This document shows, in pieces, positions 11,609-44,261 of a DNA stretch of 64,000 bases. Positions within the stretch are counted from its first letter, which is position 1; each line of letters starts with the position of its first letter. The stretch comes from Micrococcaceae bacterium Sec5.8 (GTDB lineage: Bacteria > Actinomycetota > Actinomycetes > Actinomycetales > Micrococcaceae), in the NCBI GenBank assembly GCA_039636775.1, contig CP143429.1, positions 1,054,001 to 1,118,000 of the forward strand, written 5' to 3'. A model generated the notes under the pieces. The model had not been told where the DNA came from, did no database searches, and saw only the letters and a program-made list of their open reading frames with translations. Made by a program: the position numbers and the translations under genes.

Positions 11609-14350
11609 ATGTCGAGGGAATCGCTGGGCTGGGGGAATGTTTCCACTACATTGGCACCCGCCGAACAAGAACCTGTAACCGGTACTTTGGACCGGCACAG
11701 GTGGTCAGGTCTCGCGCGCACTGCCGACGCCGACCTCGTCCGCAGTGCCCTGCTCTCCGACGAGCATGTGGGCGTCGTCATCACCGGTGACCGCGGAGTG
11801 GGCAAAACCCAGGTGGGCCGCGCCGTCATCGCGGGCCTCGGACCCGACGTCCATACCCTCCAGTTGCGCAGCGCGGGACCGGGTTCAGCGACCCCCTACG
11901 GCTGCCTGGCCTTCACTCTTGCCCGCCTGCCGCAGAGTTCCCTCGGCTCGCCGACGGCCATTCTGCAAGGCATTACCTCCCTGCTCCACGATGACGCCGC
12001 CGGACGAAAGTGCGTCATCTTTCTGGACAACGCGGGGACACTGGATGAGCTCAGCACCGGCGTCCTGCTGAACCTTGTGCAGACCCGGACCGCGCGGCTC
12101 GTTGCCACCGTCCCGCGGACCACGGACCTGCCGCCTGATTTCTACCGGCTCATCACCGCCGGGCAGCTGGCCGAGGTCAGGCTCGCCAACCTCACGGAGG
12201 TGGAAACACTGGACGTGCTTCAGGCGGCCCTGGGCTACAGGGTTTCAAGTGCCCTCGCCAGCCAGTTGCACCATCTGGTCGGCGGCAGCCCCACACTGCT
12301 GCAGGCTGTGGTCTCGGAACAGATCGAACGCGGCAACCTCGTGCTGTCCGGCTCTGTCTGGACCTTGATCGACGAAGTGGTCCTGGACGGGCGAACTGCC
12401 CTGGAGGACATCGTCCGGGCGCGGTACGCCCGGGAGACACCCGTGGCACGTGAACTGATCGAGGTGCTGTCCTGTGCCCGTACCCTGCCCTTGGCCCGGC
12501 TCGCGCGGATGTACAGCCCCGGCGTCATTGCGGATATGGAAGATGCGGGCCAGATCGTCATTGACCGGGCTGACCGGCACCTGGTGTCGCTCGGTGACCG
12601 CTATCTGGGCGACATCGTCCGCAACTGGCTCAGCGTGGAGCGCCGGCTGGAGTTGCGGGACAAGGTCCCCGGCCACCAGCAGGACGAGCTGAACGAGTTG
12701 ACCGTCGAGGACCTGCTGGCCTACGCAGCATGGACCCACGACTGCGGTGCGCCCCTGTCGTCCGCCCACGCCGTGGCAGCTGCCGCCGCCGCCGTCCGGC
12801 TCTTCGACCCGAAGTTTGCGCTTAGATGCGCCGGAAACCTGAGCCCGCAGGATCCCGAATGGACCGAGGGGCAGCTACAGAAGTCCGCCGCTTACCTGCA
12901 GCTGGGACTGCCTCTGCAGGCGATGGCTGCCCTGGATGATGTCTCCGACGCCCAGCTCAGCGCACTGGGCGCCGAAGCGTACGCAGAGCTGATCGCCGCC
13001 AAGGTGGACTGCATGTCCTGGCTCTCCGACCGGACGGGTCAGGTCCCTGACCTGATCAAGCGGGCCCGGGCGCATCTCGAAGAGCCCGGGATCCGGTCGC
13101 TGACGTCGCCGGAGGAACTCACCCGTTCCCGGCTGTCCCTGGACCTCTGCGAATACAACTACCTCTCCTTCGTCGGGAACTACGCGGCGATGATGGACCG
13201 GCTGACCGCGGCGGCGTCTTCGGACCTGGACGAGGTCAACCCGGTGCACCGGCTCAGATCCGGCATCATCCTGATGGAAGCCCTGTGCATGACCGGAAAG
13301 GAAAGCGAGGCCCGCACGCTGCTGGGCGAGATCGGCGATCAGCTGGGGGAGTGGTCCAACGTTCCGCGGATCCGGGAAAACTATGCCTGGCGGTCCGTCA
13401 ACGTACTGCTGCTCTCCGGACACTGGCGCCAAAGCATCGACATGCTCAAGGACGCCAGCGGCCGGGCCGGGCACGGACTCCATACCGGCAGTGCGTCCAC
13501 TGACCTTGCCGTTGGACTCGCCTACGTCTACGCGGGCCGTGGTTATATGGCCCTGGACCCGCTCCTTGCAGCCATCGCGCAGCTTGAGGTCAGGCCGAGC
13601 CTGCATTCGTTGCGCCAGGCCTACGCGGCGACCGCCTTCGCCTACGCGCAGACCGGAAATTCGGTTCAGGCCACGGTCTATCTGGACCGGGCACGCTCAG
13701 CCAACGTCCCGGCGAGGTTCTCGATCCGCAGCTCAGCAGACTTCTGCATGGACATGGCCTCGCGGTGGCTGGGCGATCCGGCGGCGAAGGCCAGGCTGGT
13801 GGCGGCGGCCGAGGAACACTTCCAGGAGCACCGGTACACCCTGGCCGGCATCTTCATGCTCGGGGCCACCGTCAGTGGCAACACCCACGACTTTGAATTC
13901 CTGGAGGAGATCGCGGCCCTGCGGCAGGGTCCCCTCGCTGAGCTGTCCCGGACCGTTGCCGTGGGCAGCCGCAAAAAGGACGCCGCCATCATGCTGGAAG
14001 CCGCGGCCCAGGCCGCGGTCCTGGAACTTGACGCCGTCCAGGCGCGCTGCGCTGCCCTCGCATTCGACTTTGCCAAGGCAGCCGGGCTCAGCGGCAAGGC
14101 CAGTGCCGCGCACATCATGCTGGAGAGCCTCGCCGAGTCTTTACCGGCATTGCCGATCACGCCCAGGAACAAGGGGCCGCTGCTTACTGACAGGGAACGG
14201 CAGATCGCCACCCTCGCCGGCAACGGCGTCACCAACAAGGACATAGCCCTGGCCGTCGGCATATCCGTCCGCACCGTGGAAGGGCACCTGTACCAGGTGT
14301 TCACCAAGCTTGGAGTTTCCTCGCGAAGTGATCTGCTTGGACTCATCTAG
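11609..14350 (+). CDS. LAL-type LuxR family transcriptional regulator 1 (AAA ATPase + TPR-like + HTH)
   Basis: A 913-residue regulator of the LAL (large ATP-binding LuxR, MalT-like) class. The N-terminal ATPase has Walker A GDRGVGKT (60-67) and Walker B CVIFLDNA (135-142). A long alpha-helical, TPR-like middle follows. The C-terminus (about 857-913) is a LuxR/GerE helix-turn-helix with TDRERQIATLAGNG, NKDIA and RTVEGHLY. Such proteins usually bind ATP and a ligand or partner and activate promoters. The ATG at 11609 has GAAGGAAA just upstream. Its 3' end overlaps the next LAL gene, so the two are translationally coupled. It is one of four paralogues bracketing the polysaccharide locus. The inducer is unknown. 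Confidence 0.9.
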   Translation: MSRESLGWGNVSTTLAPAEQEPVTGTLDRHRWSGLARTADADLVRSALLSDEHVGVVITGDRGVGKTQVGRAVIAGLGPDVHTLQLRSAGPGSATPYGCLAFTLARLPQSSLGSPTAILQGITSLLHDDAAGRKCVIFLDNAGTLDELSTGVLLNLVQTRTARLVATVPRTTDLPPDFYRLITAGQLAEVRLANLTEVETLDVLQAALGYRVSSALASQLHHLVGGSPTLLQAVVSEQIERGNLVLSGSVWTLIDEVVLDGRTALEDIVRARYARETPVARELIEVLSCARTLPLARLARMYSPGVIADMEDAGQIVIDRADRHLVSLGDRYLGDIVRNWLSVERRLELRDKVPGHQQDELNELTVEDLLAYAAWTHDCGAPLSSAHAVAAAAAAVRLFDPKFALRCAGNLSPQDPEWTEGQLQKSAAYLQLGLPLQAMAALDDVSDAQLSALGAEAYAELIAAKVDCMSWLSDRTGQVPDLIKRARAHLEEPGIRSLTSPEELTRSRLSLDLCEYNYLSFVGNYAAMMDRLTAAASSDLDEVNPVHRLRSGIILMEALCMTGKESEARTLLGEIGDQLGEWSNVPRIRENYAWRSVNVLLLSGHWRQSIDMLKDASGRAGHGLHTGSASTDLAVGLAYVYAGRGYMALDPLLAAIAQLEVRPSLHSLRQAYAATAFAYAQTGNSVQATVYLDRARSANVPARFSIRSSADFCMDMASRWLGDPAAKARLVAAAEEHFQEHRYTLAGIFMLGATVSGNTHDFEFLEEIAALRQGPLAELSRTVAVGSRKKDAAIMLEAAAQAAVLELDAVQARCAALAFDFAKAAGLSGKASAAHIMLESLAESLPALPITPRNKGPLLTDRERQIATLAGNGVTNKDIALAVGISVRTVEGHLYQVFTKLGVSSRSDLLGLI

Positions 14351-17042: not shown

Positions 17043-17082
17043 TCCGCACGGAGCCGAGTAGCCCGGTAGACCGCAACCTGGG

Positions 17083-17134
17083 AAAACAGGTAGCCGCGGA
17101 ACGTTGGGTCCCGCAAAACGGGTAGCCGCGGAAC
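17083..17134. repeat. Paired 20-nt direct repeats containing GGTAGCCGCGG
   Basis: Copies at 17083-17102 and 17115-17134 differ at one position (AAAACAGG versus AAAACGGG). They are offset by 32 bp, about three helical turns, as expected for two regulator molecules on the same DNA face. They lie just after the LAL 2 stop codon. Confidence 0.65.
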
Positions 17135-17153
17135 TCGGTGGACCGGTCGGCAA

Positions 17154-17169
17154 CGGGTGCCGGCACCCG
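17154..17169. other. 16-bp GC-rich palindrome
   Basis: CGGGTGCCGGCACCCG is a perfect palindrome 112 bp after the LAL 2 stop. It could be a regulator site or, less well with no loop, part of a terminator. Confidence 0.5.
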
Positions 17170-17495
17170 CTAATGAGCGCCGCCGCTGCCACAAGAGGTG
17201 GTTCGAGGCCCTGCCTGGCCAATCGGCGGGCGTCGTCGGCACGCCCCCACGGCCAGTGATGCTCGGGACGGGGTGCCGGCGTGGTTCCGGACTGTGGGCG
17301 TTGGACGGGGCGGTTCGGCCCCCGTTTGCAAGGAATTCCGGCAGTTTCCGATGCCTGCCAGCAAACCCCTGACCCTGCCGTAAACCGTAAGGATGCCCGC
17401 AGGTGCAGTCCCCGCGGCCAGGCCCGTTGCCGGCTAAACCACGCCCTGACGAGTGGGGAGCGCCTTCCCCAAACGGGGCGATGCAAGGTGATTTT

Positions 17496-17559
17496 CGGGT
17501 AGTCCGCCGGAAGCGGCACGTAGCGGCCACGCGCAGGCGGCAACTCCGGCGGGTAGTCC
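17496..17559 (+). promoter_or_regulatory. Repeated CGGGTAGTCC elements upstream of the sugar transferase gene
   Basis: Two identical 10-mers at 17496-17505 and 17550-17559 are offset by 54 bp and lie 200-260 bp upstream of the first polysaccharide gene. A one-base variant is found on the minus strand at 38168-38177, upstream of the minus-strand gene at the other end of the locus. They are candidate binding sites for a shared regulator; this is inferred from recurrence only. Confidence 0.4.
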
Positions 17560-17758
17560 ACCCGGCCGAACACCATGACAGGGCCGGGAAGATAGGTGGA
17601 ATGTACTCGTGTGCCCCTCGTGCCCGGCCCATAAGTTTGCGATAGCAATCAGTCATTAATCGCTACGGCCACGAATTGGGTCTCGAAATGCGCACGTCAC
17701 TTCCTTCAGTTTTGCCTTCTGCCGGGGACGGCGTTGCCTTCCGCGCCTGGGTGCGCCC

Positions 17759-19297
17759 GTGACCGCCGTTCGTGACTCCGCCGCGGGTCCTGTCCTTGCC
17801 GCAGGCGCAGTCGGCTTCCCCCGGGTTGCAGCCTCACGGCCGCTGCAACACCGGGCACGTGTCGTCGGGGAGGGAACGCGTTGGAGCAACAAGTACCGCC
17901 GTGTGCTGGCTATCAACGATGTGTGCGTCATTTTCTCGGTTACCCTGACGGCCCAGGTAGCGAGGTTCGGGCTCGATGACGTCCAAGTGGCGGTGGGCAG
18001 GTTCAGCCTCGGATACTTCCAGGTCTCCCTCCTGATAGCGGTGGCCTGGATGGTGGCGCTCGGGACATACCGGACGCGCGACGCCCGAATCGTCGGAATC
18101 GGCGTTGACGAGTACAAACGGGTGGTGAGTGCCACCGTGGCACTGCTGGGCGTCCTCGCCATGCTGTGCCTTTTGTTCCAAGTGGACATCGCCCGTAGTT
18201 ACTTTGCCTTGGCCTTCCCCTTAGGAATGGCAGGCCTCATTGCCTCCCGATGGGCGCTTCGCCGCTGGCTCAGCCGACAGCGCACCAAGGGGCACTACCT
18301 TTCACAGGTTTTGGTGCTCGGAAAGCCCAAAGACGTGAGCTACGTCGTCAACCAGATTGAGAAGAAGTCCGGTGCCGCCTATCGCGTCGTCGGTGTCTGC
18401 TTGACCGGAAACCCCGGGATGAAATGGCTGAGCCTTGGGCGGCGCGCAGTTCCCGTTGTGCAGGAATCCGGGTCAATTGTGGACGCGGTCCGCGAGCTCG
18501 GCGCTGATGCAGTGATCGTGGCCGGCCCAGGCAAAGGCGGTGGCAAGTACATCCAGGAACTTGGCTGGCAATTGGAGGAGTCGTCCACCGAACTGATCCT
18601 CACCACCGGGCTGACCAACGTGGCGGGCCCCCGGATTCATGCACGTCCGGTCGAGGGCTTGCCACTCATGCACGTCGAGCTTCCGCAGTACACCGGGGCC
18701 CGCCACACCCTGAAGCGCGTCTTTGACGTCGTGGCTTCCGCCTCCGCCCTGCTCATTTTGCTTCCGGTCTTCCTGGCGCTGGCGATCCTGATCAAGCGCG
18801 ACAGCCCCGGCAAGGTGTTGTTCCGCCAGGAGCGTGTCGGCAAGGCCGGCAAGAAGTTCCTGATGGTCAAGTTCCGGTCCATGGTGGAATCCGCCGAGGA
18901 CGACCTCGCCGGGCTGCTGGATCAAAACGAGGGGTCCGGGGTGCTCTTCAAAATGCAGCACGACCCCCGGGTGACAGAGGTCGGTCGCTGGATGCGCAAA
19001 TACTCCCTGGATGAGCTCCCGCAATTTTGGAACATTCTCAAGGGGGATATGAGCCTGGTCGGACCCCGGCCACCGCTTCAGCGCGAGGTCGATGGCTACA
19101 AGAACCGGGCACACCGCCGGCTCTACATCAAGCCCGGACTCACGGGGATGTGGCAGACAAACGGCCGGTCGGAACTGAACTGGCAGGACAGCATCCGGCT
19201 GGACCTGTACTACGTCGAGAACTGGTCCCTGGCCGGGGACCTCATCATCATCTGGCGCACCGCGCTGCAGATGATCAAACCCGTCGGCGCTTACTGA
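17759..19297 (+). CDS. Polyprenyl glycosylphosphotransferase (initiating sugar-phosphate transferase)
   Basis: Transfers a sugar-1-phosphate from a nucleotide sugar to undecaprenyl phosphate, the first membrane step of repeat-unit assembly. The 512-residue protein has the WbaP/CpsE-like layout: several N-terminal membrane helices, a cytosolic Rossmann-like region (about 180-290), one membrane helix (about 325-345), and the C-terminal catalytic domain. Family motifs are [27 protein letters not shown] with the Asp-Glu pair, LVGPRPP and KPGLTGMWQ. The start is a GTG at 17759 without an obvious ribosome site, so a later start is possible. It opens the polysaccharide locus. The sugar donor cannot be read from the sequence. 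Confidence 0.93.
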
Positions 19298-19354
19298 ACG
19301 GCCAGCACCGGCTCAAGCTCCCCACCGACAGCCCCAGGTAGTAAGGACACCCCA

Positions 19355-19810
19355 TTGAACACTCGCATTGGCTACGCAGCCGGAGCTTTCGACCTCTTCC
19401 ACGTCGGGCACCTCAATCTCCTGGCCCAGGCCCGGCAACGCTGTGACTTCCTCATCGCCGGCGTGGTCTCGGATGAGCTGCTGCTGGCGACCAAAGGCCG
19501 GGCGCCCGTTGTACCGCTGGCTGAACGGCTCGAAATCGTTCGGAACATCCGGTACGTGGACGAAGCGGTGGCCGAGGTCCATCCCAGCCGCCTCGACACC
19601 TGGCGGGACACCCCTTTTGACGTTTTCTTCAAGGGCGACGACTGGCGGGGCACGGAGAAAGGGATCTCGCTCGAACAACAACTCTCGAGTATCGGAGTGG
19701 AAGTCGTCTACTTCCCCTACACGATGCATACCTCCAGCACGGTTTTGCGCCGCGCGCTGGGACAGATTTTGGAGTCCGAACAAGGAAACACGACAGCAAA
19801 CTTCGCTTAG
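19355..19810 (+). CDS. TagD-like glycerol-3-phosphate cytidylyltransferase family protein
   Basis: A 151-residue nucleotidyltransferase of the cytidylyltransferase-like superfamily. It has the nucleotide-binding HVGH (16-19) within GAFDLFHVGHLNLL, and a second motif near HTSSTVLRRAL in the place of the family ISTT motif. TagD enzymes make CDP-glycerol from CTP and glycerol-3-phosphate; related proteins activate other phosphorylated alcohols or sugars, so the exact substrate is open. The start is a TTG at 19355 with TAAGGAC about eight bases upstream. It lies between the initiating transferase and a WecG/TagA glycosyltransferase, which suggests a phosphodiester-containing polymer. Confidence 0.85.
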   Translation: MNTRIGYAAGAFDLFHVGHLNLLAQARQRCDFLIAGVVSDELLLATKGRAPVVPLAERLEIVRNIRYVDEAVAEVHPSRLDTWRDTPFDVFFKGDDWRGTEKGISLEQQLSSIGVEVVYFPYTMHTSSTVLRRALGQILESEQGNTTANFA

Positions 19811-19847
19811 CTGCCTGGTTGCACATTTTCCGAGGGGGAAAATTTAC

Positions 19848-20651
19848 ATGGTCTCAACTTCACATTCCGGGCATGGCGGGGGTCTCCTGTCATCGACCCT
19901 GCGCGTGGACATCTTGGGCATCCGCATAAGCGCGGTGAATATGCCGCAGGCCCTGGACCGCCTGATTCGCCACATCGGCGATGGGCGTCGGGGCTACGTC
20001 TGCGTCACGGACGTCAACGCGTTGCTTCACGCACGCCGTGACCCGGAACTCCGCCGGATCTTTAACGCGTCCACTATGACTGTTCCGGACGGTGTGCCCC
20101 TGGTGTGGGCCGGCAAGAGCGCAGGTGCTGACTGGATGGGCCGGGTGTGCGGGCCTGACCTGATGCCGGCGCTCCTGAAGGCCGCCGCCGAGCGCGGATG
20201 GTCGTCGTACTTTTTGGGCGGTGCGCCACACGTCGCGGAAGAAATGATCGCAAATTTCAGCCGGACCATCCCCGGGCTCCAGGTTGCCGGATGCCAGTCC
20301 CCTCCCTTCCGCGAGCTAACTCCGGACGAGGAAACGGCTTTGACTCAGGAAATCAACGATTCGGGCGCCAAGATCGTCTGGGTCGGGCTGGGTGCACCCA
20401 AGCAGGAGAGCTGGATGGACCACTACCGCGGCCGCCTCAACGCGCCGCTGTTGATCGGCGTCGGTGGCGCTTTTGATATGCACGCCGGGCGAGTCAGCCG
20501 GGCGCCTCTCTGGATGCAGCGGAACGGCCTCGAATGGGCATTCCGCTTTGCGCAGGAACCCGGCCGCTTGTGGAAGCGCTACACCCGCAACGTCCCCGTC
20601 TTTGCTTTGGCGCTGTGCCGCAGTGCACCGAAGCTCGTGGAATCTACGTGA
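19848..20651 (+). CDS. WecG/TagA/CpsF family glycosyltransferase
   Basis: A GT26-type enzyme expected to add the second sugar (often a ManNAc-type residue) to the lipid-linked first sugar. The 267-residue protein has the conserved blocks VTDVNALLHARRDPELR, TVPDGVPLVW, SSYFLGGAP, VWVGLGAPKQESWM and GVGGAFDMHAG. The ATG at 19848 is chosen because GAGGGGGA lies just before it; the in-frame extension from 19368 overlaps the cytidylyltransferase gene in another frame and is spurious. Its stop overlaps the GTG of the flippase gene, indicating coupling. Confidence 0.93.
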   Translation: MVSTSHSGHGGGLLSSTLRVDILGIRISAVNMPQALDRLIRHIGDGRRGYVCVTDVNALLHARRDPELRRIFNASTMTVPDGVPLVWAGKSAGADWMGRVCGPDLMPALLKAAAERGWSSYFLGGAPHVAEEMIANFSRTIPGLQVAGCQSPPFRELTPDEETALTQEINDSGAKIVWVGLGAPKQESWMDHYRGRLNAPLLIGVGGAFDMHAGRVSRAPLWMQRNGLEWAFRFAQEPGRLWKRYTRNVPVFALALCRSAPKLVEST

Positions 20652-24974: not shown

Positions 24975-24986
24975 GAGAGGTACGCG

Positions 24987-28331: not shown

Positions 28332-28595
28332 GAAAGGACCGGACCGTGCAAGCTTCCATTGATGCCCGCGGAGCCGGCGCCCACGGTTGGCGTCCGGTGC
28401 CGATTAATGCGGACGCACGCGGTCCGGTGACGGGTGCGGGGCTCGGCGGCGGGCCGGTAATTTTCCCGGCCAGCCGCCGACCCGGCGGGTATTTGGCCCG
28501 AACCAGGGGTCGTTATGAGGCCCTTGGGCGAGCGACGACGACGTGCGGGCGCCCCGGTACCCCCGAACGCACGCCCTACAGAGGGGCAGAACGCC

Positions 28596-30077: not shown

Positions 30078-30122
30078 AGGGAGCTTCCCGCCCCGGACAT
30101 GTCAGGGGCGAGGAGCTCCCTT
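30077..30122. terminator. Bidirectional hairpin between convergent genes
   Basis: A 9-bp inverted repeat (30077-30085 and 30114-30122) with an inner CCCC/GGGG pairing. It lies at the meeting point of the plus-strand lipoprotein gene and the minus-strand glycosyltransferase gene and overlaps the latter's last codons. Confidence 0.6.
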
Positions 30123-31289: not shown

Positions 31290-31369
31290 ATGGTTCCGTT
31301 CGTTAGGCGGGCTGAATTAGCTCGCATGCTACCGGATCCGATCGGTTCTTGCTAGAGAAGGATGTCGAC

Positions 31370-32911: not shown

Positions 32912-33106
32912 GGAAACACACCTCACCGCGACGCCGCCTTACAGTAGTCAGAGGGTGATGTCAACGACCGATGGGTGCTGTTGTGCAACGAGTTTGCGCT
33001 AGAGTGTGCAACCGTAATGCCGTTCGTGTGCTCGGGGCGCGGTTTTCGCTGGGGGAGTCGCGCCCGAGCCCGAAGTTCGGACTCGCCAACAGGAAGAAAA
33101 CTTCTT

Positions 33107-34669: not shown

Positions 34670-34683
34670 CTCCGCTGCTGGCC

Positions 34684-34717
34684 TCTGCGGCGGGAGCGCG
34701 ATCGCACCCGCCGCAGA
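34684..34717 (+). terminator. Hairpin terminator after the second beta-helix gene
   Basis: A perfect 11-bp inverted repeat (34684-34694 and 34707-34717, 12-nt loop) beginning 14 bases after the stop. It suggests that gmd-fcl have their own promoter in 34718-34884. Confidence 0.75.
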
Positions 34718-34884
34718 AGCCGGTGTGGGGTGGGCAATCCTTCATATCTTGCCTCGTGAATGCCGAGAAACGCTCGCATGTGTGATCTGCGTCATCTATC
34801 ATGACAGCACAGATCGTGTGGAGCCCTTATGACCGGGGTCCGGACATTTGCCGTTCATCATCGTTCGAGACTTCGGGGGACCAT

Positions 34885-35919
34885 GTGGCTAAACGCGCGC
34901 TTATTACCGGTATTACGGGCCAGGACGGTTCGTACCTGGCCGAACTCCTCCTCATGAAGGGCTACGAGGTCCACGGCCTTATTCGGAGGGCGTCCACCTT
35001 TAACACAGTACGGATAGAGCACCTGTATGTTGATCCACACGAGCCGGATGCGAGGCTCTTCCTCCACTACGGGGATCTGAGTGACGGAGCCCGGCTCGTC
35101 ACGCTGATCGCGAAAATTAAACCCGACGAGGTATACAACCTGGCAGCCCAATCGCACGTCCGGGTCTCTTTTGACGAACCGGAACACACGGCCGACACCA
35201 CCGGCGTCGGCTCCGTGCGCATGCTCGAAGCTGTGCGCCTGGCGGGAATTGAAACCCGCTATTACCAGGCATCCTCGTCGGAGATGTTCGGCGCTACGCC
35301 GCCGCCACAAAGCGAGGACACACCGTTCTACCCGCGCTCCCCCTACGGAGCTGCAAAGGTTTACAGCTACTGGATGACCAAGAATTATCGGGAAGCCTAC
35401 GGCATGTACGCTGTCAACGGCGTGCTGTTTAACCACGAGTCACCCCGACGCGGTGAAACCTTCGTTACGCGCAAAATTACCAGGGCCGTGGCAGCCATCA
35501 GCGCCGGGCTTCAAGACACCCTGTACATGGGCAATCTCGACGCGGTCCGGGACTGGGGATACGCAGCCGAATATGTCGAAGGCATGTGGAGAATGCTGCA
35601 GGCCGAGGAACCTGACGACTTCGTCCTCGCGACGGGTGCCGCCTACACGGTTCGTGACTTCCTGGAGATTTCCTTTACCCACGCCGGCCTCAACTGGGAA
35701 GACCACGTCGAGTTCGACGAGCGCTATCTCCGTCCTACGGAAGTGGACGCGCTCGTGGGCGATGCGTCCAAGGCACGGGAGAAGCTCGGGTGGAAGGCCA
35801 CGGTGGAGACTCCTGAGCTGGCCCGCCTGATGGTGGATGCCGACATGGAGGCTTTGAAGCATCCCGGTGGTTGGATCGACACGGTGGACCTGGGCAGCTG
35901 GGGCAGCAGGGATGCCTGA
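34885..35919 (+). CDS. gmd: GDP-mannose 4,6-dehydratase
   Basis: Converts GDP-D-mannose to GDP-4-keto-6-deoxymannose, the first step to GDP-L-fucose and related deoxysugars. The 344-residue protein has the NADP-binding [14 protein letters not shown] near the N-terminus, the catalytic Ser/Glu in SSSEMFG, the YxxxK pair in [12 protein letters not shown], and [16 protein letters not shown]. The GTG at 34885 is chosen because GGGGGA precedes it and homologues start at this point; the upstream ATG at 34801 adds 28 unconserved residues. The stop overlaps the start of fcl by 8 nt. Confidence 0.96.
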
Positions 35920-36883
35920 GGCCCCCTCTTTCATCCCCGGCCCCCTTGACCGCGGTGCATCCTTCTACATCGCAGGCCATCGCGGACTGGCCGGATCAGC
36001 GCTGTGGCGCACACTGACAAGGAGAGGGTTCACGAACCTGGTTGGCCGCACGTCCCATGAACTGGACTTGAAAGACCGAAACGCCACGTTCGAGTTCTTT
36101 CGTCAAGCGAAGCCGCGGTACGTCGTCCTGGCGGCCGCCAAGGTCGGCGGGATTATGGCCAACAACGCCTATCCCGCAGATTTTCTCAGTGAGAACCTCC
36201 AGATCCAGGTCAACGTGCTCGATGCGGCCCAGCAGGCAGGAGTTGAACGGCTCCTGTTCCTCGGGTCGTCCTGTATCTACCCCAAGATGGCAGCTCAGCC
36301 GATCAAGGAGGAATACCTCCTCACGGGGCATCTGGAACCGACCAACGACGCCTATGCCATTGCGAAAATTGCCGGTATTCTCCACGTCCAAGCGGTCCGG
36401 CGACAGCATCAAAGGGCCTGGATCTCGGCCATGCCGACCAACTTGTACGGCCCGGGAGACAATTTCTCGCCCCAAGGCTCGCATGTGCTCCCGGCGCTGA
36501 TCCGCCGCTACACGGAGGCCGTGGCCGCCGGCGTGGATTCGGTGACAAACTGGGGCACCGGTTCGCCGCGCCGAGAGTTCTTGCATGTCGATGACATGGC
36601 TGAGGCCTGTCTGCACTTGATGGAACATTACGACGGCCCCGAGCACGTCAATGTAGGCACAGGGACCGATGTCAGTATCGCCGAAGTTGCCAGCCTGGTG
36701 GCGGATGCAGTCGGTTTTGCCGGATCGACCGACTGGGACGCGTCCAAACCGGACGGGACACCGCAGAAGCTGCTCGACGTCTCCAAACTTGCGGACGCGG
36801 GCTGGAAGTACCGTATTCCCTTAGAGAAGGGCATCGCGGAGACCGTGGAGTGGTACCGGCTGCAGGAGTCGGTCCGGCAATAG
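35912..36883 (+). CDS. fcl: GDP-L-fucose synthase
   Basis: Epimerase-reductase that turns the Gmd product into GDP-L-fucose with NADPH. The 323-residue protein shows the dinucleotide-binding [10 protein letters not shown], the catalytic region GSSCIYPK, the YAIAKIAG tyrosine-lysine pair and [12 protein letters not shown]. The ATG at 35912 lies inside the end of gmd. Together with gmd it indicates L-fucose (or a related 6-deoxy sugar) in the polymer. No GDP-mannose-making gene is in the locus, so the precursor must come from elsewhere. Confidence 0.95.
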
Positions 36884-36976
36884 CGTCAAGAAACATCGGG
36901 TAAAAGGAGAGGTCCGCAGCCGGCGGCGGTCCGCTTCGGGCCTTTCCTGCCTCCGCAGTTTCGTGAGGGGTGTTTC

Positions 36977-37804
36977 CTAGACTTTGTCGGCTGCGCCGTA
37001 ACTGCGCATTTCGCGGTACCAGCGGGGCAACGCCAGCAGGAGGAAGCACGCGTTGATTCCAAAGAAAACCGCATAGACCACCGAAAATACCGGCGGGATA
37101 GACCACAGGAGAAATGCCAGGCACAGCACTCCATATTCGGTGGGCAACACGGCCAGGGAGTAAAGAACTGATGAGCTGCCCTCCCCGGCCAGACGGGTAG
37201 CGGTGGAACCGCGGTGCGCCCGCCGCATCTGGTCGGTCAGGATGATCGCGAAAAACAGCACGACGGCAAGGAGCTGGTACAGCAAAGGAACGGCCAGCCA
37301 GGCGCTGCTTTCGGCGTAGCCCTGGTACCACGCCACGAGCACAGCCAGATGGAGGGACGCCATCTTGACCGCGTCGACCACGTGGTCCAGCCACTCACCT
37401 GCAAAGCTTCCGCCGCCGCGCAGCCTGGCCAGCTGCCCGTCCGCCGAGTCCAGGGCGTAACCAAGTACGAGCAGCAGGGCGATCAATACACTGACGACCG
37501 GCGTTGCCGGAGCAAACGCAATCAGCCCAATACCGGCGAAACTGCAGAAGGCGCTGACCGCTGTTACTCCGTTGGGGGTCATATGCAACCGGTAAGCCAG
37601 CGCGGCAAAATGCCGGCCCGCAGGACGGTTTAAGTAACGTGCGTAGGCGGACGCGCCCTTGGACGTTTTTTGCTTTGACCGGAGGGCTTGAACCAGTTGG
37701 TGATGGGAGGACGACGGGGCCAGCGGCGGCCCGGTCTGCTCTACCTGCACGGCGACACCTCGGTTGCGGCCAGTTTCCGAAGCCTGCACGCTGACTTTTT
37801 CCAT
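36977..37804 (-). CDS. CDP-alcohol phosphatidyltransferase family membrane protein
   Basis: A 275-residue integral membrane enzyme with the full family signature D-G-x2-A-R-x8-G-x3-D-x3-D: Asp119, Asp122, Gly123, Ala126, Arg127, Gly136, Asp140, Asp144. It has about six hydrophobic segments. The first 60 residues are polar and probably cytosolic. Family members transfer a phosphoalcohol from a CDP-activated donor to another alcohol. It does not look like the usual PgsA, PssA or inositol-phosphate synthase, and it lies at the end of a polysaccharide locus that also has a cytidylyltransferase. It converges with fcl. A specialised role in polymer or anchor modification is plausible but unproven. 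Confidence 0.88.
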   Translation of the reverse strand: MEKVSVQASETGRNRGVAVQVEQTGPPLAPSSSHHQLVQALRSKQKTSKGASAYARYLNRPAGRHFAALAYRLHMTPNGVTAVSAFCSFAGIGLIAFAPATPVVSVLIALLLVLGYALDSADGQLARLRGGGSFAGEWLDHVVDAVKMASLHLAVLVAWYQGYAESSAWLAVPLLYQLLAVVLFFAIILTDQMRRAHRGSTATRLAGEGSSSVLYSLAVLPTEYGVLCLAFLLWSIPPVFSVVYAVFFGINACFLLLALPRWYREMRSYGAADKV

Positions 37805-38167
37805 TGCATGCAGTCATCGTAGCGGCACCGGCCTGCGGGAACGACTATTTTCCCGGGCCGTTTATTTCTCCGGCGCGTCAGCGCAGCTATGGCCTTCCAA
37901 CCCGGGTGATGTCCTTCCTGGTGCCACTTCCGGACAGCGTCCCAGCGGCGATCAGGCAGTGATGTCCTTGCCTCCATGCCGGCAACAGGTTGGCATTGCC
38001 GCCCAGGTTCAGCAGCATGCGGGTAACTGCGGAGGCCCGGCAAGTAGGGACCGCGTTTCCCGGGTACGGGGACCGCGTAGCCTGACCGTGCGCGACCCAA
38101 TGCCCGGGCGAGGTGGCAAGTACCCTCGCTCGCGGTTCCTTCGCAGCCACCCCGCTAATTCGAGTAC

Positions 38168-38177
38168 GGACTACCGG
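38168..38177 (-). promoter_or_regulatory. CCGGTAGTCC element on the minus strand
   Basis: The plus-strand GGACTACCGG reads CCGGTAGTCC on the minus strand, one base different from the paired elements at 17496 and 17550. It is about 365 bp upstream of the minus-strand CDP-alcohol transferase gene. Confidence 0.35.
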
Positions 38178-38439
38178 TGCGCGGGTGGCGTCCGATTCGC
38201 TAAATTGTAGTCAGCACCAGAAACCACCGGACAAAGAATCCTGACGAGGAATCCCGACCAGGGATCCCCCAAGGAACTTCGAACGGTGGAGCCATGTCAG
38301 CAACAGCGGCCCGGTACCCGATGAAGCTACCGGGACCACCAGCGCGTGGACAATGGTCGGCCCTGGTGCAGCTAACAACAGATCCCTTCCGAAACGGTCT
38401 CCCTGAATGGTTCCCGCCGTGTGCGTGAACCCCCTAGAC

Positions 38440-38501
38440 GGAGCCGACGGCGTCGGAACCTTCTGAGACCGAGGTTCCTCCCCCCAGCCGCCGTCGGCTC
38501 C
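38440..38501. other. Long nested inverted repeat
   Basis: Perfect 13-bp arms at 38440-38452 and 38489-38501 enclose a second 6-bp inverted repeat (38455-38460 with 38473-38478). As RNA this would be a two-tier stem with an internal loop, larger than an ordinary terminator. Confidence 0.6.
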
Positions 38502-38530
38502 CCAAGCCTCCAGTGGCCCCAGTCCTGGCT

Positions 38531-38555
38531 CGGCCGCCCGATAACCGGGCGGCCG
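38531..38555. terminator. Perfect 10-bp GC hairpin
   Basis: CGGCCGCCCG (38531-38540) pairs with CGGGCGGCCG (38546-38555) across a 5-nt ATAAC loop. There is no U-tract. It may be a terminator or attenuator, or part of a structured RNA with the preceding nested repeat. Confidence 0.55.
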
Positions 38556-38739
38556 TGCCAGCACTGTGATGGCCCGCAGCGGAGTCCGCCCGGACTGCGT
38601 TCCCCCGCGGTCGGCACCCCGTCGCGGTTCGGCGGACCGCACTACTTGGTTTGAAGCGTGCGGCTCCCGGCAGCTACTGAGTACAACCACGTAGCAGGGA
38701 GGCTGCCGCTACACAGGTATTCGAGTAGCTCTTACGCAT

Positions 38740-38754
38740 CCGGTAGATTACCGG
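38740..38754. promoter_or_regulatory. Inverted repeat CCGGTA-GAT-TACCGG upstream of LAL 3
   Basis: A perfect 6-bp inverted repeat with a 3-bp centre, 55-69 bp before the LAL 3 start codon, followed by a related CGGTAGTC at 38775-38782. Its position suits an operator or activator site. The core matches the GGTAG elements found elsewhere around the polysaccharide locus. Confidence 0.5.
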
Positions 38755-38808
38755 CATCAATATGTTGGACCTATCGGTAGTCAAACTTTGATTGCGAAGG
38801 TCTCTCAC

Positions 38809-41556
38809 ATGTTTCAGCAAGAATCCGCCGTGCCTGCGGGCAGCGGCAGAACAGATACGATTTCAGCCGTCCAACGCCAGGGGAGGCGGCTCGAGAAACA
38901 GTACACGCGCCACCAGACCGTCGGGGAAGTGGTCACGGCGCTGACGTCCGGATCAGGCTGCGGGGCCGTGATAGTCGGGGAACACGGGGCAGGAAAGTCC
39001 TTCATTGCCCAACGGGCGCTCGAACAGCTCGGTGAGGACTACTTGGTGGTCCATGTCCGGGGCAGCTCGATCTCCTCCAAGCTGCCGTACGGTGCCCTCA
39101 GTGTCCTGCTCAATGAGCTCGACGCCTCCCATCTTGAGCATCCGCTGATGGTGCTCCGTGGCTTGACCCAGTTGCTTGCCACCCGGGCGCAGGGCAGGAG
39201 CGTCGTGCTGTTCGTCGACAACGCCCACGACCTCGATGAATTGTCCACGATGATGGTTGCCCAGCTCTGCGCCGGGGGACACGTCCTGCTGCTGGCGGCC
39301 TGCGTTGACCTGCCCAACCTGGGCACCGACATTATGGGGCTCTGGAAGGACGATCTCCTGCGCAGGGTGGACCTGGCACCCTTCGATTTTAGCGAAACAG
39401 CCGACAGCCTCGCCCGGGAGTACGGTGGCCAATTCTCGCACACAGCGGCTCGGGCCCTGTGGAATGCAAGCGGCGGCAACGCGCTTTTCCTGCATTCCCT
39501 GGCGCGGGAACAGATCAAAGTCGGCACCATCGTCCGCCGCGGGGATTCCTGGGTGCTGGGTGATAAGCCGGTGGCATTGGCCGGTGAGATCCGGGACGTG
39601 CTTAAAGCCCGTCTAAACCGCCTTAGCCCCGGCCAGCGCGATGTCTTTGAACTGTTGTCGCTCGCCGGCGCTTTGCCTCTGCAAACCCTGATGAGCGTGT
39701 CCAAGGCGCAGGACATCGACACACTGCAGGAACGGGCGCTGATTGCCGTCAGCCATGACCACCCGCCCATGGTGAGCATCGCCAACCCGGTCACAGCAGG
39801 AATTGTCGCCAGTGTGGTGCCGCCCGGCCGGAGCGCGGAACTGCGCCGCCGTTTGGGGGTTGTGCTCCAGGACCAGGACCTCGACGAATTCACGGGATCC
39901 ACCGCGGTCGCGTGGGCACTGGACTGCGGAGAACACGTGGAACCCGGACTTGCCCTCGCGGCGGCCCGTCTGGCGAACAAGGTATCCGACCCGCAGTCCG
40001 CGTTGAGGTTTGCCCGGGAAATTGCGGGCCAGGAGAAGCTGGCCGACGTGGCGGTGGAATCCGCCAGAGCGCTGGCGTCCCTGGGCAATGCTGAAGCGGC
40101 CCGACGCGTCCTGGCAGATGCTGAATTGCGGATTGGTGACGGATTGGCGCTGGAAGAGTGGGCGTCGCTCCAGCTGCTGTGGGCCGAGTTGGACCGGCGC
40201 AGCCCGGCCACGGCGGCAAGGGCTCTGGCCAGGCTGCAGGAGGTCGAACGGCGGCTCAATGAAGCGGGTGCGGAGGGCATCCCGGTCGCCGAGCGGGTGC
40301 GCCTGGCTTATGCCGAGCGGGTGCGCTTGGCCTACGCCGAGCTGGCCGCCTTCGAGGGCCGGTTCACTGATGTCCTGCTAATTCTCCAGGGTTTGGACTC
40401 CACTGACCTGGGCAGCGAAACGAAGCTTGTAGCCGCGAGCGTCCTGAGCGAGGCCAAAGCGGTCACCGGGGACGTTCTGGGCGCTGTTGCGCTCGGCAGG
40501 CAGGTGATCCTCGCCACCGGCGGCCTGGACTTGTCCGATGCCACGATCCGGCAAGTCCGCGGACGGTTCCTGTTACTCCTGCTGCTGGCCGCTAAGTTCC
40601 GGGAAGCCGCGGATTTCCTGGCCGCCACCTCCGAATCCCGCGACGAGCAGGCCCGGTTGGGCGGAATGTTTGAGATCGGGCAGGGAATCGTGGACCTCCA
40701 CCGCGGCCAGCTCACGCGGGCGCTTCAGCGTCTGCAGTCCGGCGTCTGGCAGCTGCGCGTGCAGGATCCGGACGCAGTGGCCGGACTCGCCGCCGCCGCC
40801 TGCGCCTTTGCCCTCGCACTCCAGGGCGATGAGGACAACGCCGGCGCCATGTTGTCGGACGCTGAAAAGCCGTTGCCCCGGGCATCATGGCTGGTGAACC
40901 GCGTCACCCGGTACTTCGAGCTCTCCGCCAAGGCGGAAATCGGGCAGAAGACCGAGGCCCTGCGCGCCATGAAGCTGGAAGCAGACCTGGATATCGACGC
41001 CTCGGCTCTTACTACCGGCCTGCAGTTCCTCTCGGCGGTGGCCCGGCTGGGAGATCGGCAGGCGAGCCAGAAACTCAACGACCTCGCCGGCCAGGTCACC
41101 GGGCACTTCGCTGGCCTGTGCGTGCGGCTTGCCGACGGGTTAAAGGATTCCGACAGCGAGGAGCTGTTGGCAACGTCCAAGGACGCCGATGCGGCCGGCA
41201 ACGCCATCTTCGCCCGGGACGTGACCAGGAAAGCGGTTACGTGCGCCAATGACGCGGGCAACCGCATCTCCCTCAGACTGGCCCAGCGCACCCAGCAATC
41301 CCTGGAAGACCGGTTCGGCAACCCCCGGAACGGTGTACTCTCGCTGCTGAGCTCGACGTTGACAGCCCGGGAATCCGAGGTTGCCGTGCGGGCGGCCGCG
41401 GGCACATCCAACCGTAAAATCGCGGACGAGATGCACGTTTCTGTCCGGACAGTTGAAGGACACCTTTATCAGGTCTACGCAAAGCTCCACGTCGCAAGCA
41501 GGTCGGAACTCAAAGATGTCATCACCGGACCCGTGGAACACGCCCGCATCGGCTGA
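38809..41556 (+). CDS. LAL-type LuxR family transcriptional regulator 3
   Basis: A third large ATP-binding LuxR regulator, 915 residues from the ATG at 38809 (GCGAAGG just upstream; TTG 38788 is an alternative). Walker A is GEHGAGKS (57-64) and Walker B is VVLFVDNAH (132-140). The helical middle domain contains an exact 8-residue tandem duplication (AERVRLAY at 494-501 and 502-509). The C-terminal LuxR helix-turn-helix has TARESEVAVRAAAG, NRKIA and RTVEGHLY. It appears closest to LAL 1 in length and motif wording (DNA in Walker B; GHLYQV). It follows a 1-kb gap and precedes LAL 4 in the same direction. Confidence 0.9.
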   Translation: MFQQESAVPAGSGRTDTISAVQRQGRRLEKQYTRHQTVGEVVTALTSGSGCGAVIVGEHGAGKSFIAQRALEQLGEDYLVVHVRGSSISSKLPYGALSVLLNELDASHLEHPLMVLRGLTQLLATRAQGRSVVLFVDNAHDLDELSTMMVAQLCAGGHVLLLAACVDLPNLGTDIMGLWKDDLLRRVDLAPFDFSETADSLAREYGGQFSHTAARALWNASGGNALFLHSLAREQIKVGTIVRRGDSWVLGDKPVALAGEIRDVLKARLNRLSPGQRDVFELLSLAGALPLQTLMSVSKAQDIDTLQERALIAVSHDHPPMVSIANPVTAGIVASVVPPGRSAELRRRLGVVLQDQDLDEFTGSTAVAWALDCGEHVEPGLALAAARLANKVSDPQSALRFAREIAGQEKLADVAVESARALASLGNAEAARRVLADAELRIGDGLALEEWASLQLLWAELDRRSPATAARALARLQEVERRLNEAGAEGIPVAERVRLAYAERVRLAYAELAAFEGRFTDVLLILQGLDSTDLGSETKLVAASVLSEAKAVTGDVLGAVALGRQVILATGGLDLSDATIRQVRGRFLLLLLLAAKFREAADFLAATSESRDEQARLGGMFEIGQGIVDLHRGQLTRALQRLQSGVWQLRVQDPDAVAGLAAAACAFALALQGDEDNAGAMLSDAEKPLPRASWLVNRVTRYFELSAKAEIGQKTEALRAMKLEADLDIDASALTTGLQFLSAVARLGDRQASQKLNDLAGQVTGHFAGLCVRLADGLKDSDSEELLATSKDADAAGNAIFARDVTRKAVTCANDAGNRISLRLAQRTQQSLEDRFGNPRNGVLSLLSSTLTARESEVAVRAAAGTSNRKIADEMHVSVRTVEGHLYQVYAKLHVASRSELKDVITGPVEHARIG
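40288..40335 (+). repeat. 24-bp in-frame tandem duplication in LAL 3
   Basis: Two adjacent 24-nt copies (40288-40311 and 40312-40335) differ only at synonymous positions and encode AERVRLAY twice. The duplication lies in the TPR-like region and adds about two helical turns. Confidence 0.85.
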
Positions 41557-41687
41557 AGGACCCGGATCCCGATCGATGGGCCCCCGCTCCATCGCCGCCC
41601 GACCCGCCGGGCCTCCGGACGCGTCGGACGGTCCCGGGCGGGCCGGGCGGGCCGGGATCCGTTGCGGACCGGCAGGAGGGGCAGCGG

Positions 41688-44261
41688 GTGGAAAGCCTGA
41701 CTGAATCTGCCACGCTGGTGGGCCGCTCCGGCGTCGTCAAAGACATTGTCAAGTGCCTGCGCGACGGCGTGCTCTCCGGCGCGCTCATCGTTGGGAACCC
41801 GGGCACGGGGAAGACGGCCGTGTTGAGGGCCGTGATCCGCGAACTCCATCCGCAAACAGCCGTGATTCGCCTCGCGGCAACGCCGGCGCTGTCGGCAGTA
41901 CCGTTCGGCGCGTTGGCGCCCTATCTGGGCCGGCTGCCCGCCCACGATCTGGACTCGTTCTCCGCCGTCGTCAAGGCCGTGACGGACAACATCAAGGCCG
42001 AGCCCAGCAAGCCGCTCTTTGTGATCGACGATGCCCAATGCCTGGACCGCGGGACAACAGAGCTCGTCGCGCAGGCAGTCGCCACCGGCGCTGCCATCAT
42101 CCTGGCCACCTGCCGGCCAGGGTTGCTGATTCCCGAGGAATTCCTGGCCCTTTGGGACGACGGGATCCTGGCCAAATTTGATCTGGAGCCGCTCACCCGG
42201 CCCGAGGTGCACCAGCTTTGCGAGCAAGTGCTCCGCGCCGATGTCTCGCCGTGGGCCAGTGCGGTGCTGGCGGACGCCTCCGCCGGCAACCCGTTGATGC
42301 TGCTGTCCTTGGTGGAGCACGCCCGCAGCACGGGGGCCCTCGGACTGCGCCGGGGCATCTGGTTCCTGCTCACGCCCCCGGTCCTGGCCGATGTTCCGGT
42401 TGCCGACCTGATCGGTCACGAGTTGCGGTCCATGTCAGCGGAGGAACGGACAGCGGCTGCGATAGTTGCGCTGGCGGGACCGCTTCCGCTCGGCCAGCTC
42501 CTGGGCTTCGGCGGCCCGAAGGCTGTCGACGCTTTGGAACGGGCCGGGATCATTACCGTGTCGAGGGGTGCCGCCAGGACGGTCCAGCCCGCGAGCCCGC
42601 TCATTGGCGCGATCATCCGCCGCTGGGTCCCTGCCGGCCGCAGCGCCAGCTTGCGGGCCAGCTTTGTGGCACTGCCCCCGGGGGCGACAGTTCCGCCGGA
42701 AGCATTCCTCAACCGGGTGCTGTGGGCTTTGGATTGCGGTGCGGCGGTGCCAGCGGACAGCCTCCTCGAAGCGGCCTGCCTTGCCAATGTGGGGCTCGAC
42801 GCGCAGACGGCGATGAGGGCCGCACATGCGGTGTCCGATGCTGCCAAGCTCCCGCTGGCCCGCCTGCAGCTCGCCTACGCACACTACTTGGCCGGTGACC
42901 GCCAGCGGTCCTCGGCCGTCCTGCAGCTTGCGGATCCCGTTCCGACCGGGGAAACCGGCTACCTGGCTGCCTTGTTGTCCGCCCGGCTCCAGGGGCCTGC
43001 CTGGCTGGACCTGGCGGCCGTCGCCACGATGGCGGGCGTCGGGGACGGTCTGCCGGCCCACGAACCGGAGGACCGGGAAAATGGTCTGAACCGGCTGATC
43101 CTGGCGGCGGGCGGGCGGCCGGGTTTGAAGATTCCGGCGGAGTCACTGCTGGCTGAATTGCTTTGTGCCAAGGGCAGGGTGGCAGAAGGCCTGGGGCTGG
43201 CCCGCGAAGCCTGGCACGGGGCGCGCAGTGCAAGCCGCGCGTTGCCGCTGGTCTATGAAGACCTCCTGGTGCGCTACAGCCTGAGCCTGATCTGGGCAGG
43301 GGAGTGGGAGGCCCTCGGTTCGGCGCTGGATGGGTACGAGGCCGATTACCCCTCGAGGCTGCTGCTCAGCGGCGGCATCATGCATCTCATGCGCGGCCTC
43401 GCCCGCGTCCGCCAAGGGCGGATGCCGGAGGGCATCGCCGAGTTGGTTCCCGGGGTTGAAGAACTCACCATCGCTGATCCCTGGGACCTGTTGCCCTTTG
43501 CCCATTCAGTCGCGGCGTACGCCAACTTCGTCGTCGGCCACCCGGGTGAGGCCGAGGACCACGCGGCCGCGTTCCGGCTGTCCCGGTACCGCGGGCAGGG
43601 GGCGCTGCCGCTGCTCGCCGACGCTTATTCCACCGCGGCCAGCGAGGCTCCGGGCGGAGCAGGCGGCGTGAGCCGGATCCTGGCAGGCCTGGCCGCAGAG
43701 GCCGGCCGGCAGGGCTTGCGGGGGATTGAGACGGACATCAGACGGCTGGCGGTGCGCCGCGGGGACACTGCGGCGGCGGACGGACTTGCCCGCAGCAGCC
43801 TGGCCGTGGAGGGCCGGGAGGCCGGGATGCTGCACGACTACGCGCTCGCGGTGCTGCAGGCGGACGACGCCGAACTTGTCCGGATCAGTGACAAGGCACT
43901 GCGCGCCGGTTTCGTGTTGCTGGCCCTCGAAGCCGCCCAGCAGGCCGAACGATGCCTGGCCGAGACCACAGACAAGCGCAAGCTGCTGGCCGTCCAGCGC
44001 AAGATCCAGAACCGGATGACAGCTGCCGGGATGGCCTCCCACATCGACCTCGTCCGTCCCGAGCAGGACGCGGAACTCACCGCGCGGGAAACCGAAATCC
44101 TGGACCTGGTGTCCGGCGGAGCGACCAACGCCGAGATCGCCAGCCGGCTCTGTGTATCCCAGCGCACCGTGGAGGGACACCTCTACCGTGTCTTCGCCAA
44201 ACTCGGCGTCAGCCGGCGGATCGACCTCATTGACACGGGCGGCGATTCGCGCCGGCCCTGA
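41688..44261 (+). CDS. LAL-type LuxR family transcriptional regulator 4
   Basis: The fourth large ATP-binding LuxR regulator, 857 residues. The GTG at 41688 has AGGAGGGG seven bases upstream. Walker A is GNPGTGKT (36-43) and Walker B is LFVIDDA (110-116). The TPR-like middle is shorter than in the other three. The C-terminal helix-turn-helix has TARETEILDLVSGG, NAEIA and RTVEGHLY. It starts 131 bp after the LAL 3 stop without an obvious terminator between them, so they may share a transcript. Downstream is the unrelated sufS-sufU pair. Confidence 0.9.
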   Translation: MESLTESATLVGRSGVVKDIVKCLRDGVLSGALIVGNPGTGKTAVLRAVIRELHPQTAVIRLAATPALSAVPFGALAPYLGRLPAHDLDSFSAVVKAVTDNIKAEPSKPLFVIDDAQCLDRGTTELVAQAVATGAAIILATCRPGLLIPEEFLALWDDGILAKFDLEPLTRPEVHQLCEQVLRADVSPWASAVLADASAGNPLMLLSLVEHARSTGALGLRRGIWFLLTPPVLADVPVADLIGHELRSMSAEERTAAAIVALAGPLPLGQLLGFGGPKAVDALERAGIITVSRGAARTVQPASPLIGAIIRRWVPAGRSASLRASFVALPPGATVPPEAFLNRVLWALDCGAAVPADSLLEAACLANVGLDAQTAMRAAHAVSDAAKLPLARLQLAYAHYLAGDRQRSSAVLQLADPVPTGETGYLAALLSARLQGPAWLDLAAVATMAGVGDGLPAHEPEDRENGLNRLILAAGGRPGLKIPAESLLAELLCAKGRVAEGLGLAREAWHGARSASRALPLVYEDLLVRYSLSLIWAGEWEALGSALDGYEADYPSRLLLSGGIMHLMRGLARVRQGRMPEGIAELVPGVEELTIADPWDLLPFAHSVAAYANFVVGHPGEAEDHAAAFRLSRYRGQGALPLLADAYSTAASEAPGGAGGVSRILAGLAAEAGRQGLRGIETDIRRLAVRRGDTAAADGLARSSLAVEGREAGMLHDYALAVLQADDAELVRISDKALRAGFVLLALEAAQQAERCLAETTDKRKLLAVQRKIQNRMTAAGMASHIDLVRPEQDAELTARETEILDLVSGGATNAEIASRLCVSQRTVEGHLYRVFAKLGVSRRIDLIDTGGDSRRP

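Follow-up and report, generated by a model that had tools for sequence, protein, structure and literature searches.

The 64,000-nt stretch analyzed here (contig CP143429.1, positions 1,054,001 to 1,118,000, of Micrococcaceae bacterium Sec5.8, GenBank assembly GCA_039636775.1; hereafter the window) contains four genes for large ATP-binding regulators of the LuxR family (LALs). They form two tandem pairs, LAL1-LAL2 and LAL3-LAL4, on either side of polysaccharide genes (Table 1). Judged from gene order in relatives, the locus consists of two tandem copies of a LAL-A/LAL-B regulator at a core site after pth, with a polysaccharide island between the copies. The conserved unit, as delimited by protein trees and gene order, is one tandem pair, A then B, and not a set of four. 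By genome comparison, the A-B pair outside the genus of the window usually lies near a gene for an exopolysaccharide polyprenyl glycosylphosphotransferase (PGT). In Micrococcaceae-type genomes, the pair is found together with a predicted hairpin RNA with covariation (HPN), which in most cases is preceded by a conserved box.

All four proteins show sequence features of the LAL class, i.e., about 900 amino acids (aa), an N-terminal Walker A/B ATPase and a C-terminal LuxR helix-turn-helix (HTH). The C-terminal GerE domain scored above the Pfam cut-off in 4/4 LALs, and AAA_16 and/or AAA_22 did so in LAL2, LAL3 and LAL4; LAL1 matched AAA_22 only, below the cut-off (22.2 vs. 27 bits). Open reading frames (ORFs) and domains confirmed the initial annotation of the window in the positions of the four genes and in their two-by-two tandem arrangement on either side of a polysaccharide locus. 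The overlap it gave for LAL1 and LAL2 amounts to 41 nt between the ORFs, and the adjacent LAL3 and LAL4 are separated by 131 nt. It had also described Walker A and Walker B as intact in all four proteins; this held for Walker A (4/4), while Walker B reads hhhhDD in LAL2 and LAL4 and hhhhDN in LAL1 and LAL3. LAL2 to LAL4 share 24-29% identity with LAL1. When LAL3 was used as query against its own 3.87-Mb genome, the full-length relatives were these four only, and one further match was a short LuxR protein at 7e-4. Since two other LuxR genes lie in open frames of more than 900 aa elsewhere in this genome, the four LALs are not necessarily all of its large LuxR proteins.

The LAL Array across the Genus

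The first genome set comprised 39 genomes (designated by G numbers), of which 25, including that of the window, belong to the genus and 14 to other families. LAL matches at 1e-20 were obtained in 26/39 genomes, namely 25/25 of the genus and 1/14 of the other families (G029). The gene pth was found directly upstream of the LAL array in 25/25 genus genomes, and sufS usually follows. A PGT homologue stands beside the core array in 3/25 genus genomes (that of the window, G005 and G019), and only in the genome of the window does an island separate the two pairs. Ten further genus genomes with two pairs (G010, G012, G014, G018, G019, G020, G022, G024, G178 and G206) have them side by side, without an intervening island. 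The dedicated symmetric set of four proposed in the initial annotation did not survive this comparison. As a conserved unit, a symmetric four-LAL circuit is ruled out by the ten contiguous cases. G064, from a sister genus, is a partial counter-example: at C1:554742-592839, homologues of PGT, GMER and GMD lie together with pth between two LAL pairs, so that, on gene content, a comparable bracket has arisen on at least one other occasion. That the four LALs form one dedicated circuit for the polysaccharide locus of the window is very improbable. They are the only full-length relatives found with the LAL3 query and they flank the locus, and G064 shows PGT, GMER and GMD in the same place; against this stand the presence of LALs in every genus genome and the contiguous pairs without an island.

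The bracket is read here as an island placed in the spacer between two neighboring pairs, because the approximately 760 nt directly 5' of LAL3 (38029-38791) can be aligned at 70% to the G014 spacer between LAL2 and LAL3, and the intervening stretch is lower in GC. In G004, homologues of the cytidylyltransferase, CDP-alcohol and LamG genes follow nifU, but no PGT gene is present there. In G022, the fourth LAL (C1:1212983-1215663, -) is split into two overlapping ORFs.

A and B Lineages of the LAL Pair

In a tree of 77 LALs, first- and second-position proteins fell into separate halves, and extra third or fifth LALs grouped with the second-position half. A second tree comprised 27 pairs (19 of them from 15 non-genus genomes) and 7 single LALs; G304 (a near copy of G122), the middle LAL of G122 and the singles of G142 and G181 (2/9) were left out. 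Here, 27/27 second-position (B) proteins formed one clade with a support of 99, and 27/27 first-position (A) proteins formed one clade, with the single LAL of G127 inside it; both trees were made with quick settings and contain long branches, including G029 and G241. Thus, the split into A and B is older than the two pair-holding families, f1 and f6. In every pair, A lies 5' of B.

The acidic dyad of Walker B was present in 4/26 first-position, 23/27 second-position and 6/7 single proteins, with the truncated A protein G136b left out of the count (A vs. B, p = 3e-7; all p values given here treat related genomes as independent and hence overstate). The pattern is reversed in G192, where A ends in ED and B in DN, and G029 and G109 lack the dyad in both proteins. 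Old, separate A and B lineages that differ at Walker B would be compatible with hetero-oligomers, although they are no proof of them.

Association of the Pair with PGT Genes

A sample of the order comprised 297 genomes, 33 of them with LAL matches, and the surroundings of the LALs were studied in all 33. Three candidates were scored per genome, which makes the LAL counts lower bounds. PGT adjacency was judged per genome within the stretches retrieved; a limit of 8 kb was applied since the flanks of single LALs measured at least 8 kb. A PGT gene was located within 8 kb of a tandem pair in 15/16 non-genus genomes, compared with 0/9 single-LAL genomes (p = 5e-6). Broken down, these were 7/8 genomes of other genera of the family (not G136) and 8/8 of family f6, and the value for the genus was 1/8. 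Thus, the link between LALs and polysaccharide genes made in the initial annotation was upheld. LALs in most relatives without polysaccharide genes, which that annotation had named as speaking against the link, were encountered inside the genus and not outside it. Two more single LALs, located at second sites in G241 and G294 and not included in these counts, likewise had no PGT gene in the retrieved stretch. For the PGT of G014, the upstream side lies off its contig.

The distance from the end of the B gene to the downstream PGT is 211-768 nt in twelve loci. Among eleven genus PGT loci away from the array, seven carry a third type of LAL 108-160 nt upstream of PGT; an example of this type (about 900 aa) is L211:8443-11253 (+), and six similar loci were seen. 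The PGTs of these seven loci formed one clade in a tree of 33 PGTs, in which the label "pair nearby" requires 3 changes (shuffle mean 10.8).

It could be argued that the LAL array marks an insertion-prone site, that the islands are cargo, and that the LALs control something else, e.g., neighboring core genes. The island is indeed lower in GC and missing at the site in most genus genomes, genus LALs persist without an adjoining PGT in 22/25 genomes, and G028 has homologues of PGT, CDP-alcohol and LamG genes beside pth where no LAL was found. However, the link between pair and PGT recurs at other sites, as in G241, in family f6 and in G024, which has an extra LAL pair on another contig at a distance of 4.9 kb from PGT; this PGT and that of the window share 67% identity. 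In addition, B ends 5' of PGT on the same strand in the twelve loci mentioned, and in G008 and G023 the box described below precedes a PGT that is not at the array. This explanation is considered rather doubtful.

The HPN Hairpin and Its Upstream Box

HPN lies between the LALs and the next gene. Its predicted fold is a single long hairpin that has a C-rich internal loop and ends in a loop of eight bases. The 161-nt stretch containing HPN and a second hairpin was more stable than its shuffles (z -6.8). Among 17 HPN copies, changes on both sides were observed in 6/19 pairs. With 64 distinct copies (95 in total), they were observed in 14/22 pairs against a shuffle mean of 5.4, the structure used being the fold of one of the counted sequences. 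In the same 64 copies, 95% of cells pair (shuffle mean 91%). The frequent G-U pairs would be A-C on the other strand, which suggests that HPN is made as RNA in the direction of the LALs. The TGAGACC of the loop was unpaired in 62/64 predicted folds.

At a threshold of 0.01, the HPN covariance model matched 25/25 genus genomes and 0/14 others. Each genus genome held 1-7 matches at E<=0.01, the secondary copies being divergent; for comparison, a repetitive extragenic palindrome would occur in many dispersed copies that are nearly identical. In 22/25 genus genomes, the best copy and a LAL gene are no more than about 700 nt apart; in the other three (G012, G020 and G022), it is more distant and falls in the gap that precedes the fifth LAL. 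In the order sample, searched with stricter filters, HPN was found in 15/297 genomes at 1e-5, all 15 in the family of the window, and in 14/15 (not G206) a LAL gene lies about 700 nt or less from the best copy. In the family sample, HPN occurred in 15/16 LAL-positive and 0/8 LAL-negative genomes (p = 1e-5), G241 being the LAL-positive genome without it. A pattern scan of named genomes was evaluated for 80 of 97 HPN-like stretches. These come from genomes named Arthrobacter, Pseudarthrobacter or Paenarthrobacter in 77 of the 80 cases. Neighbors were recognized only if related to genes of the window; with this limit, the upstream neighbor was a LAL in 70/70 loci where one was recognized, and in the 71 loci with a recognized downstream neighbor it was sufS, a LAL or PGT. 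Conservation of the loop in these 80 loci is circular, since the scan pattern contained it; 13 copies outside the pattern also keep YTGAGACC, their source model having been built on similar sequences.

Three further HPN observations were made. The genome of the window has a second, weaker copy at G000:C1:1880090-1880161 (L239:2591-2662, -); it precedes a gene of the metallo-beta-lactamase fold, and an AI-2E family transporter is encoded nearby. Two tandem copies lie upstream of PGT at L320:491-558 and 608-675 (-). A copy at L284:128-195 (-) is on a short contig of a metagenome-assembled genome labeled Acidobacteria, either by wrong binning or by transfer.

The box GAGTACNNNCTACTSGTG sits 5' of HPN, mostly 160-190 nt and elsewhere up to about 380 nt from the HPN loop. 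A best site with no more than 2 mismatches was present in 71/76 named loci, four loci near contig edges having been left out, and in 0/790 random windows. Exact GAGTACNNNCTACTSGTG occurred at 70 sites in 19/25 genus genomes and at none in the 14 others. With one mismatch allowed, the genus genomes had 127 sites (reversed control 58) and the other-family genomes 7 (control 37). The box was also located 82-85 nt upstream of PGT in G008 and G023, and inside the PGT loci of G007, G011, G017 and G021. The box appears promoter-like and is a putative LAL target.

Rfam 15 gave no match at E<=1 across 11-45 kb of the window. At E<=10, a 481-nt segment gave six matches, which all start at or after 38505 and score far below the gathering scores. 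Membership of HPN in an Rfam family was ruled out by the lack of a credible match over HPN itself. Instead of acting with the LALs, HPN could be a leader or terminator element for another RNA-binding protein, e.g., one with an ANTAR domain, and have no direct tie to them. A secondary copy in G021 (L240:1983-2050, -) lies at the 5' end of an ANTAR-domain gene, and several loci have HPN 2-250 nt upstream of sufS or PGT, as a leader would be. Yet the best copy is close to a LAL in most genus genomes, as given above, and the single hairpin with its eight-base loop is unlike ANTAR targets, described in the available text of PMC8164766 as two stem-loops with hexanucleotide loops. On this difference, HPN was ruled out as an ANTAR target, and the leader/terminator explanation as a whole is judged unlikely.

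A Proposed Circuit

The preferred explanation, which is considered as likely to hold as to fail, is a circuit of the A-B pair with HPN, the box and polysaccharide genes. In this circuit, A and B would act jointly as a hetero-oligomer, with hydrolysis mainly by B. The A-B oligomer would sense some signal and then bind the box; in the bound state, it might activate HPN, the second pair and polysaccharide genes, and HPN could then tune the gene that follows it. As a candidate step, the HPN loop CUGAGACC may pair with GGUCUC beside the starts of LAL-A2 and the PGT leader ORFs. In its fully specified form, i.e., one mixed circuit in which A-B drives HPN via the box with hydrolysis mainly by B, the loop pairs with GGUCUC at LAL-A2 and PGT leader starts, and feedback acts on a core array with attached islands, the proposal is tentative and somewhat improbable.

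Regarding the loop, GGTCTC shortly 5' of a start codon ranked top of 4096 hexamers in 130 intergenic regions 5' of LAL, PGT or sufS. It was present in 19 regions (next hexamer 18, next permutation of its letters 10). It stands before the LAL-A2 start in 11/11 quads and before PGT leader ORFs in the genome of the window, G005, G019 and G294. For AAGGTCTCACNATG, with one mismatch allowed, 53 sites were counted in the 25 genus genomes (reversed control 30) and 14 in the 14 other-family genomes (control 1). At 38407-38466 of the window, a 19-codon ORF has GGTCTC before it and its stop codon inside the HPN loop, and a near copy exists in G014. Pairing of the HPN loop with start sites may be regarded as a lead with mixed support.

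Several observations weigh against the circuit. With respect to the polysaccharide genes, a PGT homologue adjoins the core array only in the three genus genomes named above, and LALs occur in G013 and G018, where PGT had no match at 1e-40. In G241, a LAL pair and PGT are present and no HPN was found, and family f6 has pairs with PGT and neither HPN nor the exact box; thus, HPN and box are not needed for the link between pair and PGT. In the genome of the window, the only site within one mismatch of GAGTACNNNCTACTSGTG is the one at HPN, and none lies at its own PGT. With respect to ATP hydrolysis, the dyad is retained in four A proteins and missing from four B proteins, and the Walker A lysine is lost in 2/26 A and 3/27 B proteins. 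In addition, the available text of PMC5015266 gives the second Walker B Asp of PikD as dispensable, while both Walker B aspartates matter in MilR (PMC5015266); since the two differ, an effect of the Walker B of A on hydrolysis is a prediction. With respect to pairing, GGTCTC was joint fourth of 30 letter permutations in a second design, a genome-wide search for trans targets of the HPN loop revealed no HPN-specific excess, and AGGTCTC and GGTCTC-N-TG were not enriched in the window alone.

The Polysaccharide Island and Other Features of the Window

The features of the window are listed in Table 1.

Table 1. Coordinates of LAL genes, RNA and DNA elements and island genes, counted from the first nucleotide of the window.
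Feature	Position	Strand	Remarks
LAL1	11609..14350	+	First-position, A-type; Walker A GDRGVGKT; Walker B ends DN; 913 aa
LAL2	14310..17042	+	Second-position, B-type; Walker B ends DD; 910 aa
Polysaccharide island	17043..38028	.	Approximate limits, ~21 kb; GC 0.627 vs. 0.669 and 0.678 in flanks
Leader ORF, 24 codons	17688..17762	+	GGTCTC (17679-17684) before it; overlaps PGT start; predicted from sequence only
PGT	17759..19297	+	TIGR03025, 413.8 bits, cut-off 295.55
Cytidylyltransferase-like protein	19355..19810	+	
WecB/TagA/CpsF glycosyltransferase	19848..20651	+	Start codon overlapped by GGTCTCA
ORF in the place of a Wzx flippase	20534..22009	+	No family match
Wzz-like protein	22006..23595	+	20.5 vs. 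Pfam cut-off 25.5, i.e., below
Wzy_C protein (O-antigen ligase/polymerase family)	23592..24974	+	PF04932, 36.1 vs. 31.7 bits; family includes ligases
Large protein, laminin-G-like and PKD domains	24987..28331	+	
GDPD, GT4 glycosyltransferase (-), two beta-helix proteins, GDP-mannose dehydratase, epimerase	28515..36883	.	
CDP-alcohol phosphatidyltransferase family protein	36977..37804	-	
Box GAGTACGGACTACCGGTG	38162..38179	+	One mismatch from GAGTACNNNCTACTSGTG
HPN hairpin RNA (predicted)	38436..38505	+	Structure backed by covariation
Second GC-rich inverted repeat after HPN	38520..38566	+	Terminator-like, no T run
AAGGTCTCTCACATG	38797..38811	+	At likely LAL3 start, ATG 38809
LAL3	38788..41556	+	Second pair, first-position, A-type; Walker B ends DN; 922 aa
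LAL4	41688..44261	+	Second pair, second-position, B-type; Walker B ends DD; 857 aa

The polysaccharide genes had been annotated as a Wzx/Wzy-type locus. An initiating glycosylphosphotransferase (TIGR03025), a Wzy polymerase (PF04932) and a WecB/TagA/CpsF protein were found. The putative Wzx ORF had no match in Pfam or NCBIfam and the Wzz match remained below the cut-off, so that the locus is only likely to be of the Wzx/Wzy type.

Between LAL2 and PGT, at 17083-17134, two 20-nt direct repeats that are 95% identical lie 32 nt apart. A palindrome, CCGGTAgatTACCGG / CCGGTANNNTACCGG, occurs at 38740-38754 upstream of LAL3 and at seven other places of the window. With no more than 2 mismatches, 8 sites were counted compared with 2.3 expected, and 0/100 shuffles reached 8. 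As a candidate, CCGGTAgatTACCGG was dropped since it does not occur in the LAL2-LAL3 spacers of G010, G014, G018, G019 and G024.

Comparison with Known Systems

Neither the LAL class nor a variable polysaccharide island is unusual. In the literature searched, no description of the A-B LAL pair, the box or HPN was found. Judged by this literature and Rfam 15, three things are new: the old A-B pair of LALs with its unequal members, its link to PGT genes in two families, and the box and covarying RNA that go with the pair in the family of the window. LALs are known mainly from antibiotic clusters, and the unequal, conserved A-B pair could serve as a natural system for studying LAL assembly and the split of ATP binding from hydrolysis. 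The box offers a testable regulon in Arthrobacter and its kin, and with HPN there is a structured RNA, not covered by any Rfam model, that is linked to a protein regulator. Taken together, pair, box and HPN could explain how existing control extends over exchangeable surface-polysaccharide islands.

MalT is the type member of the LALs. Its overall architecture resembles that of the LALs in the window; it differs in being encoded by a single gene, and only the MalT HTH model matched LAL3 and LAL1, weakly. In the available text of PMC5015266, ATP and ADP forms switch the activity of MalT.

ANTAR-target RNAs of Actinobacteria are structured leader-type RNAs, as HPN would be, and have been reported in Arthrobacter (available text of PMC8164766). 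They consist of a dual stem-loop with hexanucleotide loops, whereas HPN is one long hairpin. With actinobacterial Wzx/Wzy-type exopolysaccharide loci, the window shares genes for PGT, WecB/TagA/CpsF and Wzy_C; it differs in a candidate flippase that family models do not recognize and in being an accessory island beside a core regulator array.

A further comparison is with the LALs of Streptomyces clusters (PikD, MilR, NysRI-III, AmphRI-III). The available text of PMC3282765 calls LALs a poorly studied family. As far as the available texts go, these proteins share the size of about 900 aa, the N-terminal ATPase and the C-terminal LuxR HTH with the LALs of the window, and several of them can share one cluster (PMC9774167, PMC3282765, PMC5015266). 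The nystatin cluster has three LALs according to the available text of a review (PMC9774167), so that the remark in the initial annotation that LALs usually occur singly was too strong. Streptomyces LALs serve antibiotic clusters; here, in contrast, a fixed A/B tandem pair with unequal Walker B motifs is found near polysaccharide genes, together with an RNA and a box.

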